This document shows, in pieces, positions 628 to 10,099 of a DNA stretch of 29,646 nt (the stretch's first letter is position 1; each line of letters opens with the position of its first letter). A program made the position numbers and the translations under genes. Source of the DNA: a virus; the IMG/VR virus record IMGVR_UViG_3300033571_010801, positions 1 through 29,646 of that record; one strand, 5' to 3'. The notes below the pieces were generated by a model. That model saw only the letters and a list, made by a program, of their open reading frames with translations. It searched no databases and was not told where the DNA came from.

Positions 628-643
628 CTATGTCGCGGGGTCA
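628..643 (-). repeat. Intergenic 16-nt element, copy 1
   Basis: Exact TGACCCCGCGACATAG on the minus strand. Its TGA is the stop codon of the gene at 641-901. 21 nt separate it from the next ATG (606). Confidence 0.95.
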
Positions 644-901
644 ACGCGCCCTGTGTCCATCCGAATACAGCGGCTCGACATCGTTCAGCCGGCAGAACCC
701 GAACAGCTTCTGCGACACCATCATCAACGACGCATAGGTACGCGCCGCATCATGCAACGCACCGAACGGATCGCTCGACGCAGCGAAGTCGCGTTCGCAC
801 ACTCGCGTTGCCCAGTGACGCAGGGCGGGAGCGATGTGCCTCGCCTGCTCCAGGGTCAGGGTCAGGTCGATAGTCGCCTCGTCAGACTGCTGCTTCGGCA
901 T
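641..901 (-). CDS. Hypothetical protein (86 aa)
   Basis: The ATG at 901 follows GAGGAG at about 6 nt, and the gene overlaps the previous one by 20 nt. The N-terminus is acidic (MPKQQSDEATIDLTLTLEQA), followed by a helix-rich middle with HWATRVCERDFAA and a DPFGALHDAARTYASLMM helix. The terminal TGA is part of element copy 1. No recognised domain; probably a soluble helical accessory protein of the early operon. Confidence 0.7.
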   Translation of the reverse strand: MPKQQSDEATIDLTLTLEQARHIAPALRHWATRVCERDFAASSDPFGALHDAARTYASLMMVSQKLFGFCRLNDVEPLYSDGHRAR

Positions 902-1103
902 GACGCATCTCCTCTGTGTTGTGTCCGACGATCTCCATGATCAGACCGTAGGCTGTGTGACCTGGGTGCTTGCCGCCGGCCAGCTCGCACTTCCACTCAG
1001 GGCAATACACCATGTAGTTGCCCGTCTCTTTGTGCAGGGTGAACACCAGGGTGAAGCTGGGGTACAGCCCCTCTGCGTACTCCTGTTCGTAGGGTGTGCT
1101 CAT
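882..1103 (-). CDS. Hypothetical protein (73 aa)
   Basis: The ATG at 1103 overlaps the preceding stop (TGATG), with GGAGG a few nt upstream. An in-frame upstream extension exists but runs through the neighbouring gene and was not chosen. The sequence suggests a beta-rich core: SFTLVFTLHKETGNYMVYC followed by PEWKCELAGGKHPGHTAYG. Two cysteines (C34, C39) sit close together. The pattern recalls small phage proteins that report or bind a ligand, but I cannot assign it. Confidence 0.7.
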   Translation of the reverse strand: MSTPYEQEYAEGLYPSFTLVFTLHKETGNYMVYCPEWKCELAGGKHPGHTAYGLIMEIVGHNTEEMRHAEAAV

Positions 1104-1324
1104 CACTCTCCCTCCTTGCTCAACTCGCGGAACGCCGGGTTGCTGCTGGGAAGAAACCGGCATGCGATGTCGGCAATGGCCCGCACATGTGGGTCCATGT
1201 CCTGCGCCGCCTGCCCCCTCCCAGCCTTGAGGAAAAGACACCCTGCCTTGACCATCATGCGGACGGACCTCGCCAACATCTGAGCCGCCTCGTCCTGCTT
1301 GTTGCCGTCGATGACCTTACCCAT
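1103..1324 (-). CDS. Hypothetical protein (73 aa)
   Basis: The ATG at 1324 has the shared leader GGAGGACGAGTG, which here directly abuts the end of element copy 2. It ends in a TGATG overlap with the next gene. The protein is helical: DEAAQMLARSVRMMVKAGCLFLKAGRG, then HVRAIADIACRFLPSSNPAFREL. No family recognised. Confidence 0.7.
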   Translation of the reverse strand: MGKVIDGNKQDEAAQMLARSVRMMVKAGCLFLKAGRGQAAQDMDPHVRAIADIACRFLPSSNPAFRELSKEGE

Positions 1325-1335
1325 CACTCGTCCTC

Positions 1336-1351
1336 CTATGTCGCGGGGTCA
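1336..1351 (-). repeat. Intergenic 16-nt element, copy 2
   Basis: Exact TGACCCCGCGACATAG (minus). It provides the stop of the gene at 1349-1510. Only 11 nt separate it from the next ATG, so the element ends right where the GGAGG ribosome site begins. This is the shortest leader of the set. Confidence 0.95.
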
Positions 1352-1510
1352 GTAGCCCCCGGTGAATACGATCTCCCACTGCCGCCCGTTGATCGGGCCG
1401 ATCACCCGCTCGACCTCGAACGTCACGCCCTGCCGCACCAGCTCGGCGCAGATGCGGGCAACCGTCACCTCGTCTTCGCTCCGCTCCGGGATGATGATCT
1501 TGCTGCTCAT
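1349..1510 (-). CDS. Small hypothetical protein (53 aa)
   Basis: The reading frame runs from ATG 1510 to TGA 1349-1351, beginning MSSKIIIPERSEDEV and ending with VIGPINGRQWEIVFTGGY. The start overlaps the previous stop by 4 nt (ATGA). The stop lies in element copy 2. The flanking coupling and the shared codon style support it as a real gene despite its size. The alternation of a helix (VARICAELVRQG) and strands (TFEVERVIG, WEIVFTG) suggests a small alpha/beta fold. Function unknown. Confidence 0.75.
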   Translation of the reverse strand: MSSKIIIPERSEDEVTVARICAELVRQGVTFEVERVIGPINGRQWEIVFTGGY

Positions 1511-1764
1511 CGGTCGAACTCCATCGCTCGCCTTGCCTCGTCCATGTACTGCTTCGCCAGCTCGCTCACGACCGTAGCCCGCCGCTCGAACTCACGGCGG
1601 TCGGATTGGTAGTCGCCGCCGATCTGGTAGTCCCTGCCGTGCGGCTGCCACTGGCGCATGAGGGAGAGCGCCGCATCCAGGGATCGCGACACATCCGCCA
1701 TCTGCTCAGCCAGGACGCTGGCATGCGAGCCGTTGATGTTGGGAACCGGACTGATCATGTGCAT
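1507..1764 (-). CDS. Hypothetical protein (85 aa)
   Basis: The ATG at 1764 (MHMISPVPNIN) overlaps the preceding stop as TGATG and carries the GAGGACGAGTG leader. An upstream in-frame extension is rejected because it lies inside the neighbour. The protein is highly charged and probably coiled: LAEQMADVSRSLDAALSLMRQW, then DRREFERRATVVSELAKQYMDEARRAME. Family unknown. Confidence 0.7.
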   Translation of the reverse strand: MHMISPVPNINGSHASVLAEQMADVSRSLDAALSLMRQWQPHGRDYQIGGDYQSDRREFERRATVVSELAKQYMDEARRAMEFDR

Positions 1765-2000
1765 CACTCGTCCTCCTTCCGAACGGAGATGGTGTCGAGC
1801 CAAGCCGCATGCTCTAGCTGGTGCAGCATGGAATCGTAGTGCCACTTGCGCGTCAGGTGATCCAGGTATGGCGGGTAATAAATCTTGTCGGAGTCCTCGC
1901 CCCTCAGTTCAGCCATCGCATCGGCTTCTTCAGTGGACGCCCTCCGAAGCAAGGGCAGCAGCAGCCGCAATCCGTCGCTCTCCAGCTCAATCTTCACCAT
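1764..2000 (-). CDS. Hypothetical protein (78 aa)
   Basis: The ATG at 2000 overlaps the upstream stop (TGATG), and GGAG precedes it by about 8 nt. It starts MVKIELESDGLRLLLPLLRRAS. The C-terminal half contains KIYYPPYLDHLTRKWHYDSM and ends in acidic KEDE. No motif is recognised. Tight coupling to both neighbours supports a real gene. Confidence 0.7.
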   Translation of the reverse strand: MVKIELESDGLRLLLPLLRRASTEEADAMAELRGEDSDKIYYPPYLDHLTRKWHYDSMLHQLEHAAWLDTISVRKEDE

Positions 2001-2215
2001 CACTCGTTCTCCTCTTCGTCTGCCTCGACCTCAACGATCCGGCATCGGCCGGCGATCTCGTCTACCGGGATACGCTCCCGGCGAGAGGTCGAATAGAAAC
2101 CTTGGAACTGGAACCGATTGGCATACGCCACAGCCGCAGCCGCTGCCGCCTCCCGCGTTGGGTAGTAGTCGCTGCGGACTATGCTCATGCCGTCAGGTGA
2201 CAAAACGTCGAACAT
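2000..2215 (-). CDS. Conserved-type small phage protein (71 aa)
   Basis: The ATG at 2215 overlaps the previous stop (TGATG); a GTG one codon earlier is less likely. The text MFDVLSPDGMSI, then a helix with AAAAAAVAYANRFQ, then FQGFYSTSRRERIPVDEIAG and CRIVEV, matches a layout I recall from small uncharacterised phage and bacterial proteins (F/GYYS...RIP..E....C.I). The tail is acidic (EADEEENE). No function is known to me. The recall is from memory and not checked by a search. Confidence 0.75.
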   Translation of the reverse strand: MFDVLSPDGMSIVRSDYYPTREAAAAAAVAYANRFQFQGFYSTSRRERIPVDEIAGRCRIVEVEADEEENE

Positions 2216-2370
2216 CACTTGCCCTCCATCGCTCGTCGTGTCGCATCCGCCCGCGTCCGCGTCCGCCGCGTCCGCCGGTCGGCGTGTACCCCGGAACCGC
2301 TCCGGTGTTCGCCATGTCCCTTGCCGATCCGCCAGATCGGGCGGGGGTTGATCTTGATTCGCTCGCTCAT
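2215..2370 (-). CDS. Small arginine-rich protein (51 aa)
   Basis: The ATG at 2370 follows GGAG of the GGAGCAGGGCG leader, 10 nt after the stop of the upstream gene. It ends as TGATG with the next gene. It starts MSERIKINPRPIWRIGKGHG. The C-terminal half is a strongly basic run (RRTRRTRTRADATRR), which would suit nucleic acid or membrane contact. The CGG/ACG repeat at about 2245-2280 encodes this run and may be slippage-prone. Confidence 0.65.
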   Translation of the reverse strand: MSERIKINPRPIWRIGKGHGEHRSGSGVHADRRTRRTRTRADATRRAMEGK

Positions 2371-2380
2371 CGCCCTGCTC

Positions 2381-2665
2381 CTATGCCCGCGCGTCGGTGA
2401 CCCGCACCCGCTCGCACTTGTCCGTCAAGAAATCCCAGCCATCCCGATCCAGCTTGTAGACCAGCTCCTCCCAGACGCACCGCAGTGGCAGCTTCTCCAC
2501 CATCGTCGGCCCGCCAGTGACGGTGCATGGGTAGTAGGTGAGGATGTCCCTCGCCTTGTCCGCATCGAACGCACGAACGTCTTCGCTCCAGCGGCGGATG
2601 AATGTGCAGGGAAACAGATCGCCGTCGCACTCAGCCACCAGCTCATCGACAGTCATCTCTCGCAT
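2381..2665 (-). CDS. Hypothetical protein (94 aa)
   Basis: The start is taken at ATG 2665 (MREMTVDELVAECDGD) because GGGAG stands 7 nt before it and element copy 3 lies just upstream. A longer in-frame start at 2731 would have to read through the element. It contains LFPCTFIRRWSEDVRAFDADKA, a YYPCTVTGGPT segment and VEKLPLRCVWEELVYKLDRDGW. Four cysteines. Family not recognised. Confidence 0.7.
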   Translation of the reverse strand: MREMTVDELVAECDGDLFPCTFIRRWSEDVRAFDADKARDILTYYPCTVTGGPTMVEKLPLRCVWEELVYKLDRDGWDFLTDKCERVRVTDARA

Positions 2666-2687
2666 CGCCTTGCTCCCTTGTGTAGCC

Positions 2688-2703
2688 CTATGTCGCGGGG
2701 TCA
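2688..2703 (-). repeat. Intergenic 16-nt element, copy 3
   Basis: Exact TGACCCCGCGACATAG (minus). Here the TGA is not used as a stop: a hairpin (2716-2748) lies between it and the upstream gene's stop at 2756. It continues GGGCTACA like copy 4. Confidence 0.95.
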
Positions 2704-2715
2704 GCCCGACCGGGG

Positions 2716-2748
2716 CCGGGGCAGGCAGCACAGTGCCGCCTGCCCCGG
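2716..2748 (-). terminator. Strong GC hairpin between genes (terminator or processing site)
   Basis: CCGGGGCAGGC (2716-2726) pairs perfectly with GCCTGCCCCGG (2738-2748) around an 11-nt loop. It sits just after the stop of the DUF932 gene and just before element copy 3. No U tract follows on the minus strand. It may be an attenuator, an RNA-stabilising end or an RNase site rather than a classic terminator. Confidence 0.6.
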
Positions 2749-2755
2749 TGCTAGG

Positions 2756-3649
2756 TCAGACCGCCAACGCCAGCTCCTCAGCCCGCCGCACCGCGGCGTC
2801 GCTCGACGCCAGGATGATGCGGTCGATGTCGGTCGGGTGGCCGCGCCGCCGGGAGTCGTGTTGGACGTACCCCTGGATCGCGTTGTATGCCTCCCACGCA
2901 GACACCACGAATGAACTGTCCAATTCACCGCGACCCGTCCGCATCCGCTCGCTGTAGATCCGGCGGAAGATGGCTTCCGTCCGGTTGCGGTGGATGGTGA
3001 CTCCCCGGCCGGTGTCGCGGTCAGGCTCGCCATACACCGACCGCAGGAACTCCACCATGCTGACCCGCCTGGACTCCATCTGCTGGATGACGGTCTGCAT
3101 ATTCCCCCAGGCGTGGCGCAGCCCGCCGAAGGTTTCGATCAGCTCGTCCATCCGCGGACGCAGGCTGGAGGTATGCCGGATGGTGACCGACACACTGTTC
3201 ACCGACTGCATCCGGCTCAGGTTCCGGCAAACGTCGCGGTAGTACCCGACGCTCGCCCGAAAGCTGCCCGACCCACCGTAGGGTGCGGAGATGAACAGCC
3301 GGGGCCAGACATCGTCGCCGCCGTTGCGTCCGTTGTCGAAGACACGCAGCCGCTGCTTATCGGTCGGCTCCGCGATGACGAAGTGTCCGTCGGAGAATCC
3401 GCAACTGAGACTCGCCACCCCGTCGAACGCAGCCGACGCCGCATCGACCAGGGCAATCACATCGTCCGTCGTGTGCGGCTCGTATCGGTTGGTGACCGAC
3501 CCGCCACCGACTGCCCGCCCAGTGTCCGACCGGAACAGGCCGAACCAGGGGGTACTCAGCCCGTCCGGCCCACGCAGGGGGAACCGATCCACGCTGAAGT
3601 TGTACTGCTGCCGCACCGTTGCGGCGATGTCACACGCTTGCACATTCAT
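2756..3649 (-). CDS. DUF932-type phage/plasmid-like protein (297 aa)
   Basis: The ATG at 3649 follows GGAG at 7 nt; a GTG one codon earlier is possible. The length and layout fit the DUF932 'phage/plasmid-like' family, whose biochemical role is unsettled. Points of resemblance are a short N-terminal strand region ending in TPWFGLFRSDTG, GGGSVTNRYEPHTTDDVIALVDAA (about residues 50-72), a central beta-rich FVIAEP and LFISAPYGGSGSF region, then long helices (DELIETFGGLRHAWGNMQTVIQQME, FRRIYSERM) and a WEAYNAIQGYVQHDSRRRG end. It is the largest gene of the operon. Element copy 4 lies in front of it and copy 3 behind it. In phages this family often sits in early or replication regions, which fits its place here. 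Assignment is by remembered family features only. Confidence 0.75.
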   Translation of the reverse strand: MNVQACDIAATVRQQYNFSVDRFPLRGPDGLSTPWFGLFRSDTGRAVGGGSVTNRYEPHTTDDVIALVDAASAAFDGVASLSCGFSDGHFVIAEPTDKQRLRVFDNGRNGGDDVWPRLFISAPYGGSGSFRASVGYYRDVCRNLSRMQSVNSVSVTIRHTSSLRPRMDELIETFGGLRHAWGNMQTVIQQMESRRVSMVEFLRSVYGEPDRDTGRGVTIHRNRTEAIFRRIYSERMRTGRGELDSSFVVSAWEAYNAIQGYVQHDSRRRGHPTDIDRIILASSDAAVRRAEELALAV

Positions 3650-3688
3650 CACGCTTCTCCTAGAGGAAACCGAACCAGTTCTGTAGCC

Positions 3689-3704
3689 CTATGTCGCGGG
3701 GTCA
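3689..3704 (-). repeat. Intergenic 16-nt element, copy 4
   Basis: Exact TGACCCCGCGACATAG (minus). It supplies the stop of the gene at 3702-4088. 39 nt to the DUF932 start. Confidence 0.95.
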
Positions 3705-4088
3705 CTGGCCCCGGCCCCATGCCAGCAACGCCCGCCGGCTTGTCAGGATGGTGGCGAACCGCTCGCCGTCGATGTCCCGCCCATGCAGATCACGCCAATG
3801 CGGCGCGACCCGCGGGTTGTATTGCACCTCCACAGCCGACAGACCGTAGGGCCACGACCCGTCGGAGGTCTGCACCGACACCCGCTCTGCCTCGACCCAC
3901 GCACAAGGCGACTTGTTCTCGCCGTCGTGGATAGCCTGAGCCGTTCCGCGTCGGTTCCGCAGCCGACACCCGTACATGCGGAGGTAGGTTGTGTCGGGGC
4001 TGTGGTACTCGACCCGCCCGTCGGCGTGGCGAATCTGCCACTTGCCGTAGTTCTCGCCCGCACCAAGATGAAACCGCACCCGAACCAT
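3702..4088 (-). CDS. Hypothetical protein (128 aa)
   Basis: The ATG at 4088 (MVRVRFHLGAGENYG) follows AAGGAG at about 8 nt. Alternative in-frame ATGs at 4109 and 4130 lack a good ribosome site. It is a beta-rich protein with YGKWQIRHADGRVEYHSPDTTYLRM, CAWVEAERVSVQT, GLSAVEVQYNPRVAPHW and GERFATILTSRRALLAWGRGQ. The 'kWQIRHaDGRVeYhsPd' segment recalls small phage proteins of unknown role. The stop is in element copy 4. Confidence 0.7.
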   Translation of the reverse strand: MVRVRFHLGAGENYGKWQIRHADGRVEYHSPDTTYLRMYGCRLRNRRGTAQAIHDGENKSPCAWVEAERVSVQTSDGSWPYGLSAVEVQYNPRVAPHWRDLHGRDIDGERFATILTSRRALLAWGRGQ

Positions 4089-4141
4089 GCTGCGTCTCCT
4101 TGTGTCCATTGTCCGACCGCGCCAAGCCATGTCTCGCCCGC

Positions 4142-4157
4142 CTATGTCGCGGGGTCA
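4142..4157 (-). repeat. Intergenic 16-nt element, copy 5
   Basis: Exact TGACCCCGCGACATAG (minus). It supplies the stop of the gene at 4155-4379. 53 nt to the next chosen ATG (4088), the longest leader. Confidence 0.95.
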
Positions 4158-4379
4158 GTCCATCACGCCGCGGTAGGGGTTGATCATCGTCGTGCCTGGG
4201 GCGTCGTCGCCCTGCGGCTCGACATACTCGACGGTCAGCCGCCAGCCCTGCCCGCGCTCAGCCAGCAGCAGGCTTCCCGCTCTCGTCGCCGCCGACGCCG
4301 TGCGGAAACTGCTGACCACGAAGATCTCCGGGTCCACCTGCCCAGGCTTGTCGAGAATGAACCGCCACGAACCCTTCAT
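4155..4379 (-). CDS. Hypothetical protein (74 aa)
   Basis: The ATG at 4379 is preceded by AAGGAG at about 8 nt. It begins MKGSWRFILDKPGQVDPEIFVVSSFRTASAATRAG, with a WRLTVEYVEPQGD strand segment near the end. Probably a small alpha/beta protein. The stop lies in element copy 5. No family recognised. Confidence 0.7.
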   Translation of the reverse strand: MKGSWRFILDKPGQVDPEIFVVSSFRTASAATRAGSLLLAERGQGWRLTVEYVEPQGDDAPGTTMINPYRGVMD

Positions 4380-4414
4380 GCCATTTCTCCTTGTGTGTGT
4401 TGCCCTTCGCCCTG

Positions 4415-4430
4415 CTATGTCGCGGGGTCA
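4415..4430 (-). repeat. Intergenic 16-nt element, copy 6
   Basis: Exact TGACCCCGCGACATAG (minus). It supplies the stop of the gene at 4428-4739. 35 nt to the next ATG. Confidence 0.95.
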
Positions 4431-4739
4431 GCCGTTGTGATGTCCGGTGTAGATGTCGTCCCCGATGGGCAGGGATACGTCGCGGATGTAGTCGCCGCCC
4501 GCGACAATGCACCGCTCCATATGCCCCAGATCCTGCACCGCGCACCGGAACCGGCAGACGCCGCACCGGACTAGCACCTGTCGCAGCCGGTCAAACCCCA
4601 GGATGTCCGCGACATCGGACGAGGTGAGGAAACCATGCCGCGCCCGTATCGCGGGGGCGTTCGCCTCGAAGCGCGCGTGCGCCATATCGGGGGAAATGCA
4701 GGTTGCGTTTGGAAATCGACGGTCGGTCATGGTTTGCAT
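4428..4739 (-). CDS. Cysteine-containing hypothetical protein (103 aa)
   Basis: The start is at ATG 4739 (MQTMTDRRFPNATC) because GGAACAAACC precedes it at the same distance as GGAGCAAACC before the GP88-like gene. A longer frame would read through element copy 7. It contains NAPAIRARHGFLTSSDVADILGFDRLRQVL, which could be a small helix-turn-helix-like segment, followed by RCGVCRFRC, whose CxxCxxxC spacing might bind metal. The combination hints at a DNA-binding regulator, but this is inference only. Confidence 0.7.
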   Translation of the reverse strand: MQTMTDRRFPNATCISPDMAHARFEANAPAIRARHGFLTSSDVADILGFDRLRQVLVRCGVCRFRCAVQDLGHMERCIVAGGDYIRDVSLPIGDDIYTGHHNG

Positions 4740-4758
4740 GGTTTGTTCCTTTTCTCTG

Positions 4759-4774
4759 CTATGTCGCGGGGTCA
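4759..4774 (-). repeat. Intergenic 16-nt element, copy 7
   Basis: Exact TGACCCCGCGACATAG (minus). It supplies the stop of the GP88-like gene. 19 nt to the next ATG (4739). Confidence 0.95.
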
Positions 4775-5620
4775 GCCCGCCAGTTCGTATTGACGCCCGG
4801 CGATAGTTGCCCACAGTTGGGCAAACCCGGAGTCGATTGCCGCATTGCGAGAGTCATAGGTGCGGGCGAGCAGACGCAGCCCGACCAACACGCCCCGCGG
4901 ATCGTCCGGCCGCCAATCGGTTTTCCCGCCGTCGATAGCCGGGAACCCGCGCCACGACGCCGGCAGCCGTTGCTTGTGCGCGGCCTTGCCACACTTGCCG
5001 CCGTGTTCGTAGAACACGACCGACACATTCCCGCCGGCCCGTAGAATCCGCTCAGCGGCTTCCCAGTTCGTGCCGTCGAAAGAGAACGTCACCCAGTAGT
5101 TCGGGCGAATAGCACCCCATCGGCGCGGGTTTTTCGAGTAATCGTAGAACGATATGCCGGGGTTGGCATCGATGACGCCGTAGTGTTCCCAGGGTATGTC
5201 GGAGAACATATTGAGGCGCACCCCGACCGTAGTGTCGGGAGGGTACTTCTCCCGGAATCGGGATAGTTCGCGGTTCAATTTCGCGAGGAACCATTCCCGC
5301 GCGAGATACCACAAGACGGTTTTCGCGACTCGCGCCCCGGCCACCGACGGCACCGGCCCCTGACCTTGATGCGCCAGACAGGGAACGACGCACACTTTCG
5401 CGAACGGGCAGACGTTGCCGAAGCCGATCCCGTCCGCGGGGTAGAGCGACAGCCCCATGGTGACAACCTCATTCTTGGCTGTCTTCGGGTTCAGGTCACC
5501 CTCGCCCAGCAGCTTGCCAACCCCCGTAGGCTTTGGCAGACGACCGCCAGACACAGTGGCCCGGTTCGGGCTATGTAGCACGACGGTATAGCCGTGCTTC
5601 TCAATAGTGATGGGGTACAT
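4772..5620 (-). CDS. GP88-like phage protein (282 aa)
   Basis: The ATG at 5620 (MYPITIEKHG) follows GGAGCAAACC; upstream in-frame codons lead back into element copy 8. The protein resembles the phage 'gene product 88' family as I remember it. The points of similarity are an N-terminal GVGKLLGEGDLNPKTAKN region, VTMGLSLYPADGIGFGNV followed by a cysteine cluster CPFAKVCVVPC (C71, C77, C81), then GARVAKTVLWYLAREWFLAKLNREL, VRLNMFSDIPWE and ISFYDYSKNP. The C-x5-C-x3-C cluster suggests metal or Fe-S binding. The family has no settled biochemical function that I know. It is the first full-size gene of the leftward operon, so it is probably expressed early and strongly. Confidence 0.7.
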   Translation of the reverse strand: MYPITIEKHGYTVVLHSPNRATVSGGRLPKPTGVGKLLGEGDLNPKTAKNEVVTMGLSLYPADGIGFGNVCPFAKVCVVPCLAHQGQGPVPSVAGARVAKTVLWYLAREWFLAKLNRELSRFREKYPPDTTVGVRLNMFSDIPWEHYGVIDANPGISFYDYSKNPRRWGAIRPNYWVTFSFDGTNWEAAERILRAGGNVSVVFYEHGGKCGKAAHKQRLPASWRGFPAIDGGKTDWRPDDPRGVLVGLRLLARTYDSRNAAIDSGFAQLWATIAGRQYELAG

Positions 5621-5639
5621 GGTTTGCTCCGTTTCCCGC

Positions 5640-5655
5640 ATATGTCGCGGGGTCG
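5640..5655 (-). repeat. Intergenic 16-nt element, copy 8 (variant)
   Basis: The minus strand reads CGACCCCGCGACATAT: the core GACCCCGCGACATA is intact but both end bases differ, so no stop codon is formed. 19 nt to the GP88-like start. Confidence 0.9.
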
Positions 5656-5682
5656 AGACTCCGTTGTGTTGAGAACCGAAAG

Positions 5683-5729
5683 AGGGAACCGACGGGGTCG
5701 AACCGTCGAACGGGCCTATCCCGTTCCCT
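5683..5729 (-). ncRNA. 47-nt tRNA-like fold (T-arm plus acceptor-like stem)
   Basis: On the minus strand AGGGAA (5729-5724) pairs with TTCCCT (5688-5683). Inside are a CGGG/CCCG hairpin (5723-5711, loop ATAGG) and a perfect T-arm, GACGG-TTCGACC-CCGTC (5707-5691), with the canonical TTCGAnn loop. There is no D-arm or full anticodon arm, so it is not a normal tRNA. It lies in the 82-nt gap between element copies 8 and 9. It could be a tRNA remnant, a tRNA mimic or chance. Confidence 0.45.
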
Positions 5730-5737
5730 ACACCCTG

Positions 5738-5753
5738 CTATGTCGCGGGGTCA
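5738..5753 (-). repeat. Intergenic 16-nt element, copy 9
   Basis: Exact TGACCCCGCGACATAG (minus). It supplies the stop of the 29-aa ORF and is followed by the tRNA-like fold rather than a coding gene. Confidence 0.95.
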
Positions 5754-5840
5754 CGACGCCTTGACGAATGACAGCGCGAGGATGAATGCCGCCTCAGCCG
5801 TGAAACCCATGGCCCGATACCGATTGAATGCCTGACGCAT
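5751..5840 (-). CDS. Very small protein (29 aa), first gene of the leftward operon
   Basis: ATG 5840 follows GGAGCAAGTC, the same ribosome-site cassette as the GP88-like gene, and TGA is at 5751-5753 inside element copy 9. It starts MRQAFNRYRAMGFTAEAAF and ends with the hydrophobic ILALSFVKAS. Element copies on both sides, as with the larger genes, argue that it is translated. A short amphipathic helix is likely. Function unknown. Confidence 0.6.
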   Translation of the reverse strand: MRQAFNRYRAMGFTAEAAFILALSFVKAS

Positions 5841-5859
5841 GACTTGCTCCTTTGTCCTG

Positions 5860-5875
5860 CTATGTCGCGGGGTCA
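5860..5875 (-). repeat. Intergenic 16-nt element, copy 10
   Basis: Exact TGACCCCGCGACATAG (minus), 19 nt before the 29-aa ORF. It is the innermost of three tandem copies at the head of the operon. The TGA ends no gene. Confidence 0.95.
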
Positions 5876-5910
5876 GGGTCACGACCCGTTGTCGCTTCCC
5901 TCACACACTG

Positions 5911-5926
5911 CTATGTCGCGGGGTCG
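5911..5926 (-). repeat. Intergenic 16-nt element, copy 11
   Basis: The minus strand reads CGACCCCGCGACATAG: only the first base differs (C for T), so there is no stop codon. It is the middle copy of the tandem trio. Confidence 0.92.
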
Positions 5927-5955
5927 CGACCCGTCGTCGTTTCCCTCACACTTCC

Positions 5956-5971
5956 CTATGTCGCGGGGTCA
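5956..5971 (-). repeat. Intergenic 16-nt element, copy 12
   Basis: Exact TGACCCCGCGACATAG (minus). It is the outermost (most upstream) copy, 115 nt before the first small ORF of the operon. Confidence 0.95.
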
Positions 5972-6063: not shown

Positions 6064-6182
6064 TCAGCCGGCAGACACAAGCGAAGACCCCGTTCGCCCC
6101 CCACAGCCACACACATACATATATGTCCAGCTCTTGGATTTTTTCCCGAATCGCAAAGGGGTGGACCGGGACTTTGCAGCGT

Positions 6183-6285
6183 CGTGGACAGTGGACAAGC
6201 AACTCTTGTCCATGCACGAAAAGCCCTTGTTTCTAGGCACTTTCAGCCGCGGTTCGGTGGACAGGCAACTTGTCCACTGTCCAAT
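6183..6285. promoter_or_regulatory. Cluster of six TGTCCA sites resembling high-GC DnaA boxes
   Basis: Sites (5'-3' on their own strand): CTGTCCACG (6191-6183, minus), TTGTCCACT (6198-6190, minus), TTGTCCATG (6206-6214, plus), CTGTCCACC (6264-6256, minus), TTGTCCACT (6270-6278, plus), CTGTCCAAT (6277-6285, plus). Two form stem-loops: GGACAAG/CTTGTCC (6193-6211) and GTGGACA/TGTCCAC (6257-6277). The actinobacterial DnaA box is TTGTCCACA, one base from two of these. This fits an origin or a repressor operator cluster. Confidence 0.5.
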
Positions 6286-6894: not shown

Positions 6895-6966
6895 GCCGGA
6901 ATAGCTCAAAGGTAGAGCTGCTGTTTTGTAAACAGCGGGTTGGGGGTTCGAGTCCCTCTTCCGGCT
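6895..6966 (+). tRNA. tRNA-Thr (anticodon UGU)
   Basis: Full cloverleaf: acceptor GCCGGAA (6895-6901) with TTCCGGC (6959-6965); D-stem GCTC/GAGC (6904-6907, 6915-6918); anticodon stem GCTGT/ACAGC around loop TTTGTAA, anticodon TGT at 6927-6929; T-arm GGGGG-TTCGAGT-CCCTC (6942-6958, one G-U). G1-C72, C2-G71 and G35-U36 agree with threonine identity. The discriminator is U. CCA is not encoded. It reads ACA codons, which are rare relative to ACC/ACG in GC-rich DNA, so it may supplement the host pool. Confidence 0.95.
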
Positions 6967-7923: not shown

Positions 7924-8307
7924 ATGCCCCGACGCACGACCACCCTGCCGGAATTCCAGGAGTATGTCTGGGATCAGCTCCCGTTTCAGCGGGGAATGAT
8001 CGGCAGGGAGATTGTGTTCGATGCCGTCTCAGTGGCGGTCCAGGAGTGGCCCGACGAGCAGCTCTGCGGCTGCAAGTCCGGTGGCACCGAAGAGCTGAGG
8101 GCCACCGAATCCCTGGAGGCCAGCATCCGCCGGCACCTCCGCTTGTCCTATGGGCAGGAGAAGTTCGACGCCTTGTGGCTCGTCGCTCTTCAAATCCTGC
8201 TGCCGGTCATCGTTGACCAGATCCTAAAGTGGTGGCGGCGACGCAAGGATCACCGCGGCCGGCTACGGATCTGGCGAAGGAAGTGGGTACATGGCCCAGA
8301 CGCTTAG
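7924..8307 (+). CDS. One-TM membrane protein (127 aa)
   Basis: ATG 7924 follows the previous stop by one base. The first 80 residues are soluble and charged (LPEFQEYVWDQLPFQRGM, VAVQEWPDEQLCGCKSG). A single hydrophobic segment, FDALWLVALQILLPVIVDQ to W104 (residues 81-104), is followed by a strongly basic tail (WWRRRKDHRGRLRIWRRKW), which predicts the C-terminus on the cytoplasmic side. A holin or other membrane role is possible, but a lone TM and no nearby endolysin make this uncertain. Confidence 0.7.
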   Translation: MPRRTTTLPEFQEYVWDQLPFQRGMIGREIVFDAVSVAVQEWPDEQLCGCKSGGTEELRATESLEASIRRHLRLSYGQEKFDALWLVALQILLPVIVDQILKWWRRRKDHRGRLRIWRRKWVHGPDA

Positions 8308-10099
8308 TCTCACGCCTGAAGGCAATATCCGTCAGATGCGGATTGCCCCAGAGCAGCTCATCGTTTCGGGCCGCAGTGCGCCCCCTGGGGGGCCGGACCC
8401 TGTGTCGCAGATCCCGGCAGCAAGCGTTTTCGAGACGATGCTTGGCACCGACCTGGACATGAGCAACGTCAGTCCGCGGGAGGTGTACCGCTGGGAGAAC
8501 GACCCGAAGTACGGGTACGGGGGCGACGTCCACCAGCAGTACATCGCCAACGCCGAACGGATCATGGACATGCCGGTCGTCCCTACGGCCGCTGTTAGGG
8601 CCATCATCGGCTACAGCCCAGTGCAGGCTCCGCAAATGACCGTCCGGGATGTGGTCAGGGTGGCCCCGACCATCGCTGAGGTCAAGGCCCAGGCGGCGTA
8701 TCTTGCAGACCCTGGCAGTGCAGAAAAACAGGCAGCCTACGAAAGCATCCAGCAGCTCAACGCACAGCATTACGGCGGCGATGGGCCGCGGGACACGCCG
8801 CACCCGATGGAGCAAGAGGTCTACAACGCCTTCACTGCCCAGCGGCATGACCGCTCATCTCCGCACCTCGGCACTGTGGTGGACGAAATCCTCGGCGCCG
8901 TCAGGGCAGGGACGACCGGGGGCCGGTTCGAGGACGACCCGTCGATCTCTCAGTCGGAGCTGGCTGATCTGCAAGCCAAGTACGGAGAAGAAGCCAACCG
9001 GATGCTCACCCCAGGCGGCGCGAAGAATGCCCAGCGGGAGATGGTGTTCGACTTCCTGTCCGCAGCACAGAGCGGCAGCCACCTCAACCCGCACTTTGAC
9101 AACACGGCGTACCTGACTGCCATGGTGGCTCCAGGGTGGCAGAATCTGGGCGGCGGGCAGAACAAGGGCGAGATGCTCGAAGACCCGTCGGCTCTTCGCG
9201 GCCGGATGGCAATGGCGAACTGGCGTCTTGGTCAGGCTATGCCGACGTTCGAGGCCAGCGCAGACAACCCGGAAAAGCCGTATGTGGTTGAGGCGAAAAA
9301 CTTCAACCGGCTCGACCCCAGCTCATACCAGGGCATCATGGCCCTCTCTGAGAATGCGTCGTGGCCCTATGCCCGCAACGTCTACCACCCGTTCCAGCAG
9401 CTCATGGGGTCCGCTGGCGAGAGGCTTGCCCTGGCGGACGGACTGCTCGACATGCAGCCGTTGCAGTTCCAGGTCGATGCCTCCAATCGCTCGAAGCGGG
9501 AGGCTCCGGTTCGCATGGACGGTGAGGACTACGCGGCGAACAGGGCTACCAGGACGTTCGTGAAAGACCGCGACGCCGCGGCTGCCGACTACCTGTCCAC
9601 GCATGCCCCTGTGGCAGTTGCCGATGCGGCGAATGCGTTTGGCCGTGCGGCGAACAAGGTGATTCCGCACAATACACCAGCCTTGAGCCGCACGCCGAAT
9701 GAGGCGATGAGGACTGCCTACTCGCTTCCATACGCCATGGCAACCAGCCCAGCAAACGCTGTCAGCATGGCGGTCGGAGCTGCCGGAAAGTCGCCGCTGC
9801 TTATTGCTGGGAACCTCCTCAAGGAGGCTGGCGACGAAGTTCTGGAGGATGCGATCATCGATCCGTCGAACGCCAACCCATTCCGGCCAGCCGGCGGATC
9901 TGCGTGGATGCGACCGAACGTAACCGTCCAGGACGGCATGGGCGGAATGAGAAAGAGGAAAGACGACGAGCTGCGGGCGATGTTCGATCCCGATAACAAG
10001 GAAGCATGGGATCGCGGCGTCCAGGAGACGAACGCCACTCGCGCCAGGGAGCTGCGAGATCAGTACCAGCAGTGGCGCGCCGGCACTCAGCAACGCTAA
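8291..10099 (+). CDS. 602-aa protein upstream of scaffold, probable virion protein
   Basis: ATG 8291 overlaps the previous gene by 17 nt, with AAGGAAG upstream. No enzymatic motif is visible. The protein is Ala/Asn/Pro-rich with segments such as VYRWENDPKYGYGGDVHQQY, QLNAQHYGGDGPRDTPHP, NLGGGQNKGEMLEDPSA and a C-terminal half with Ala-rich helices (VADAANAFGRAANKVI, SMAVGAAGKSPLLIAGNLL). Its place directly before the scaffold-like and capsid genes suggests a structural or internal head protein. I do not recognise the family. It is followed by a 60-nt gap without features. Confidence 0.7.
   Translation: MAQTLSLTPEGNIRQMRIAPEQLIVSGRSAPPGGPDPVSQIPAASVFETMLGTDLDMSNVSPREVYRWENDPKYGYGGDVHQQYIANAERIMDMPVVPTAAVRAIIGYSPVQAPQMTVRDVVRVAPTIAEVKAQAAYLADPGSAEKQAAYESIQQLNAQHYGGDGPRDTPHPMEQEVYNAFTAQRHDRSSPHLGTVVDEILGAVRAGTTGGRFEDDPSISQSELADLQAKYGEEANRMLTPGGAKNAQREMVFDFLSAAQSGSHLNPHFDNTAYLTAMVAPGWQNLGGGQNKGEMLEDPSALRGRMAMANWRLGQAMPTFEASADNPEKPYVVEAKNFNRLDPSSYQGIMALSENASWPYARNVYHPFQQLMGSAGERLALADGLLDMQPLQFQVDASNRSKREAPVRMDGEDYAANRATRTFVKDRDAAAADYLSTHAPVAVADAANAFGRAANKVIPHNTPALSRTPNEAMRTAYSLPYAMATSPANAVSMAVGAAGKSPLLIAGNLLKEAGDEVLEDAIIDPSNANPFRPAGGSAWMRPNVTVQDGMGGMRKRKDDELRAMFDPDNKEAWDRGVQETNATRARELRDQYQQWRAGTQQR

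Follow-up and report, generated by a model that had tools for sequence, protein, structure and literature searches.

The early leftward region and its repeated element

The window analysed here is the whole of IMG/VR record IMGVR_UViG_3300033571_010801, a stretch of viral DNA of 29,646 bases (labelled G000), which apparently represents a fragment of a phage genome whose kin measure about 60 kb. Its early leftward genes are punctuated by a short element, TGACCCCGCGACATAG, present in 12 copies that all lie on the minus strand within positions 628-5971. The leftward operon begins with an open reading frame (ORF) of 29 amino acids (5751..5840, minus strand), and a similarly tiny ORF occupies the same place in G001, a 59.4-kb relative. 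The second leftward gene encodes a GP88 family protein (PF17338; 4772..5620, minus strand) and corresponds in rank to gene 87 of Mycobacterium phage Sabertooth. Further along the minus strand lie the gene of a 128-aa protein with no assigned function (3702..4088), common to the element-bearing phages G001, G020, G021 and G022, and the gene of a DUF932 protein (PF06067; 2756..3649) that is 65% identical in G001.

Three copies of the element (5956..5971, 5911..5926 and 5860..5875) are arrayed in the untranslated leader upstream of the 29-aa ORF, the innermost lying 19 nt 5' of that ORF. The copy at 5640..5655 stands 19 nt 5' of the GP88 start, and the one at 2688..2703 lies 52 nt 3' of the DUF932 stop, directly past a strong hairpin. 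This hairpin (2716-2748, minus strand) sits between the gene and the element, and G001 has a hairpin in the corresponding position. In the remaining seven of the 12 copies, a TGA within the element also ends the reading frame of the upstream gene, as its stop codon: the stop of the 29-aa ORF at 5738..5753, that of GP88 at 4759..4774, and those of other upstream genes at 4415..4430, 4142..4157, 3689..3704, 1336..1351 and 628..643.

Conservation of the element is strict. Ten copies are perfect, the 5911 copy has one mismatch (CGACCCC...) and the 5640 copy has two (CGACCCCGCGACATAT), while the 14-base core GACCCCGCGACATA is unchanged in all 12, exactly at the coordinates and with the invariance that a preliminary description of this DNA had reported. 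The conserved unit spans 16-17 nt, with an abrupt drop in conservation at both borders; the word ends in ACATAG, and the base at the end of the copies is G in 11 of 12. When up to three mismatches were allowed, the 12 matches compared with a chance expectation of 0.39 and a maximum of 2 over 100 shuffles, and neither the plus strand nor the rightward structural block of the window held a single copy. The non-random occurrence and the absence from the rightward block that the preliminary description had proposed are thus both borne out, and the element is real and strongly selected.

The position of the copies is equally regular. According to a curated gene list, all eight leftward junctions with a gap of at least 24 nt carry the element, a 130-nt gap holding two, and the eight tighter junctions, which either overlap or leave at most 10 nt, all lack it. 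The earlier claim that overlapping stop/start junctions lack the element was therefore correct, and the claim that every leftward junction with a gap carries it holds for the wider gaps and fails for the 10-nt gap at 2371-2380. Similarly, the proposed distance of 11-53 nt to the next start codon describes the junction copies, such as the 628 copy, which the sequence places 21 nt from the ATG at 606; the outer copies of the array and the 5738 copy stand farther off, at 70-117 nt. A second motif at a fixed distance from the element (a -10 hexamer or other) was sought and none appeared except a weak ribosome-binding-site context. A scan with Rfam returned no RNA family at the elements, its only significant match being a tRNA-Thr at 6895. 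An antisense small RNA as partner of the element was rejected, as the complementary word was found neither in the window nor, at 0-1 mismatch, in G001.

Upstream of the array, the leader of the window aligns with those of G001 and of a third phage, G017, in a constant order: a promoter-like block (an A-tract, then GGACATATATATATGTG), a conserved TTGCGACGGTGCCG and the first element. The first element, 5956..5971 in the window, holds the same position in all three leaders, with the word swapped. The block itself (A-tract plus GGACATATATRTATGTG; 6107..6165, minus strand) lies about 140 nt 5' of the first element and is a candidate early promoter on the strength of this alignment; a simple sigma-70 scan did not call it.

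Unrelated words in the same layout

Using the capsid protein as a query, 63 related viral contigs were retrieved, and 20 records, the window counted among them, were analysed at full length for repeats. Strict repeats were present in three of the 20: G000, G001 and G017, whose structural proteins are mostly 60-88% identical. G001 is essentially complete, because its contig ends overlap (1-123 equals 58947-59069, and 100-198 equals 59279-59377); the G017 record comprises 15.9 kb. G001 carries GATTTCCGGCAAC 25 times (24 exact) and G017 carries AACTAACGGCAAG 13 times, in each case in one orientation, confined to an early block that starts with GP88, and with a leader array of four copies. The words of the three phages are unrelated to one another despite the same layout. 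Unrelated words at matching places in close relatives point to a private on/off signal, with a reader made by each virus.

For most G001 copies 19-25 nt separate the element from the following start, and in G017 the interval is 21-27 nt. Seven of the G001 copies reach into the called 3' end of the preceding gene, yet most of these keep a distance of about 20 nt to the start that follows, which argues that the constraint acts on nucleotides. The G001 word is GC-rich and is followed by any base.

The exact window word occurs in 40 other viral contigs, once in each, and these single copies were judged to be chance. The G001 word likewise occurs in single copies beyond G001, apart from one contig with several, which was rejected as a carrier of the element because its copies form an 18-nt coding repeat. 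In the siblings G002-G006, which have no GP88/DUF932 early module, no word is enriched upstream of genes: the best word precedes 2-4 genes, against 1-4 in shuffles, compared with 8 genes in G000, 16 in G001 and 10 in G017. GP88 by itself is no predictor of the element either, because other GP88 phages (the T7-like Lo5R7ANS, TRX32-1, Bylgja and S42-C7) have no comparable junction repeats. Five other phages with GP88 or an early module (L181, L051, L182, L197 and L198) have junction repeats of their own, often with hairpins between element and start whose loops include GGCACGTTGCC.

A second group of phages, reached through a shared early gene, includes the sisters G021 and G022, most of whose proteins are 80-99% identical. 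Five junctions were compared between them, and in the best-conserved ones the two sequences agree fully for tens of bases on one side of the element or on both. The element core is exchanged at all matched junctions, reading CGGCTGnnnGTT in one sister and CGGCTTGTAGTT in the other, and at these best-conserved junctions it is in the core that the differences lie. A lone site could drift, but a concerted change across junctions implies a trans-acting reader of altered specificity. Taken together, these sequence comparisons lead to the conclusion that the element is read by a fast-evolving, lineage-specific trans-acting factor, which is probably phage-encoded.

Two candidates for this reader were considered. 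A 113-aa helix-turn-helix protein adjoining a helicase is only 47-49% identical between G021 and G022, whereas its flanking genes are 86-91% identical; it is a tentative lead, since shorter relatives are present in element-free siblings and none was found in G001. A sigma-factor-like protein of 173 aa (L149:10877-11395 in G001, minus strand; PHROG match with E 6.5e-4 and RpoE match with E 0.048, both weak) has orthologues in G002-G008 and is about 70% identical across the family. It was rejected as the reader: with such identity in siblings that lack the element, it cannot account for wholly different words.

Known repeat systems and the competing explanations

Three known systems served as yardsticks under the same word scan: T7 promoters, the start-associated sequences (SAS) of cluster K mycobacteriophages and the stoperators of cluster A. 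All three give a comparable signal, so copy number and polarity by themselves cannot decide the kind of element.

The closest resemblance is to the cluster A stoperators (L5, Bxb1 and the Peaches group). These are asymmetric sites of about 13 bp in many copies, mostly in one orientation relative to transcription, whose motifs diverge along with the repressor (PMC6550527), a two-domain monomer that binds them (PMC9283540). As in the window, they stand at stop codons and just 5' of starts, with an array where the leftward operon begins, and their words vary among relatives. In Sabertooth, used as the cluster A control, the sites in either arm are oriented with transcription. Those at junctions mostly fall no more than 5 nt from a stop codon, with the next start 11-16 nt away. 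Four sites stand ahead of the first leftward gene, and GP88 comes second among the leftward genes, behind a tiny ORF, as it does in the window. However, the words have nothing in common with the cluster A consensus, the window capsid protein has no match in the phage collection searched, and a repressor homologue was not found. The element is consequently stoperator-like but not a member of the cluster A system: orientation, leader array, stop-codon position, GP88 synteny and divergence between relatives all agree with the stoperator model of the preliminary description, and the repressor is the part that does not.

The cluster K sequences (SAS and extended SAS, ESAS) are 13-16 nt long, stand in one orientation before the starts of non-structural genes only and have no known function, and the ESAS words vary by subcluster (PMC3203893, PMC12699233). 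The element has a similar spread, as had been suggested, but the comparison ends there. The GGGATAGGAGCCC-like SAS word takes in the ribosome-binding site, at a distance of 3-8 nt from the start, whereas the element has a different word, stands some 20 nt ahead of starts and occurs in addition as an ORF-free array in the leader. The repeats of cluster O phages such as Corndog are likewise invariant and short (17 bp, more than 30 copies) and of unknown function; unlike the element, they are palindromic, about one third of them lie in coding regions, and they have no tie to junctions (PMC4351075). Because a defining feature of each of the three yardsticks was looked for and found missing, the element belongs to none of these kinds.

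Among the explanations that can be offered, the leading one is that the early leftward operon is under stoperator-like control, although we hold it with a little less than even confidence. A single host-type promoter near 6107-6165 would drive the operon, and the element would be the recognition site of a sequence-specific, fast-evolving and most likely phage-encoded protein. Once bound, this protein would form a roadblock that depends on orientation, initially in the leader array of three to four sites and then again just 5' of each gene or gene group, probably keeping the early genes silent in the repressed state. We infer the protein nature and DNA binding of the reader, its repressive role and the identity of the block as a promoter. 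Repression in lysogeny is plausible because G001 encodes a tyrosine integrase.

Several observations weigh against such repression. No copy lies on the predicted promoter block of the window, whereas the leader sites of Sabertooth include a TTGACA with a -10-like hexamer after it. In cluster A both arms bear sites, and the rightward block of the window has none. A profile of nine cluster A repressors gave nothing significant in G000, G001, G017 or G020-G023, while recovering the Sabertooth repressor with E 4e-86, and no other repressor was identified among the G001 proteins. Finally, G001 and G017 keep the element at a near-constant spacing of some 20 nt from the start, which is equally natural for a translation-linked (RNA) or promoter role.

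The same spacing is central to an explanation at the RNA level, in which a phage RNA-binding protein or nuclease would recognise a signal just 5' of the ribosome-binding site and control translation, processing or antitermination cistron by cistron. The element is always transcribed in the sense direction, its distance to the start is kept even by copies inside the upstream gene, and some copies adjoin strong hairpins; in G020-G022 a hairpin bearing a short T run is often found 3' of the element. Nevertheless, the hairpin is 5' of the element in some phages and 3' in others, the leader array copies have no ORF behind them, the lack of a complementary copy offers no partner, and a repeat at every junction is unlike processive antitermination. 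We consider an RNA signal unlikely. A phage-specific promoter, towards which the preliminary description leaned, appears less likely again. Here each gene group would receive a short 5' leader from a phage RNA polymerase or sigma-like factor, as in T7-like phages. The T7 control shows matching geometry, with 12 exact 13-mers all pointing the same way, doublets ahead of the first gene and an upstream stop codon in the first three bases of seven of the 14 promoters. The window shares this orientation, junction position, leader doubling, similar copy number and embedded stop codon, the last a likeness that had gone unnoticed; its word ends in ACATAG, and the family encodes the weakly matching sigma-like protein. 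Against it, a single-subunit RNA polymerase (PF00940) was not matched in G001 or G020-G023, although a T7-like control phage gave 4e-113, and none was detected in the siblings in a search run without a positive control. The large unknown proteins gave no polymerase match, the one of 1943 aa reading as a tail protein, and a T7-like or virion polymerase was thus rejected for the complete relative G001. Moreover, the element is confined to the early block, its word in G001 is GC-rich, the terminal G of the window is not conserved there as a purine start base, nor is a start base conserved across the relatives, and the sigma-like protein is well conserved in siblings without the element.

The repeats might also persist mainly as cassette boundaries, through gain and loss of genes by recombination between identical short sequences, an explanation that we regard as very improbable. 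At both contig ends of G001, a stretch of about 233 bp (with a 74-aa ORF) between two copies is present in one path and missing from the other, seemingly lost via recombination between elements, and apart from small insertions the early genes are colinear. This polymorphism may, however, be an assembly effect, and such exchange leaves the single orientation, the leader array, the start spacing and the coordinated word change at the unchanged G021/G022 junctions unexplained. The comparison of these sisters also suggests that selection maintains elements where the genes around them stay constant.

Stoperator-like silencing, if true, would recur in unrelated phages with a GP88 module through different proteins, rather than being a peculiarity of one actinophage group. 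A broader proposal, possible but with the balance against it, is that an undescribed class of gene control travels with a GP88-type early module in unrelated uncultured phages. Each early cistron would carry a short one-way word for a phage-encoded factor that has no kinship with the cluster A repressor, and the specificities of this factor and of its words would shift as a set, like immunity types. The sisters G021 and G022, with near-identical flanks and switched cores, constitute a natural experiment in which the co-evolution of regulator and sites is directly testable. Furthermore, the words could serve as tags for sorting uncultured phages into groups of regulatory specificity.

Other features of the window and its relatives

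A tRNA-like piece lies 3' of an element copy at 5684-5728 (minus strand). It comprises a T-arm, GACGG-TTCGACC-CCGTC, closed by GGGAA/TTCCC, together with a small hairpin, CGGG-ATAGG-CCCG, and has no anticodon arm; neither ARAGORN nor Rfam called it. G001 has a similar stretch (GGATAGGCC...GACGGTTCGAGTCCGTC) past its element near 57690. Between the divergent operons, inverted repeats TGGACAAG...CTTGTCCAC at 6183-6212 and 6256-6277 are candidate operators of a dimeric regulator, and G017 shares this region through 15 identical bases, TTGTCCACTGTCCAC.

Searches of phage records with the window DNA and the structural-region proteins gave no match, and a host search across genomes returned a single weak indication, one contig of a planctomycete bin. 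A 602-aa protein encoded at 8291-10099 has no family match and is about 27% identical to its syntenic G001 counterpart, compared with 60-85% for the neighbouring proteins. In the early block of G001, L149:8702-9562 matches the queuine tRNA-ribosyltransferase family phrog_887, a possible sign of DNA base modification, and has a 56% identical relative in G020.

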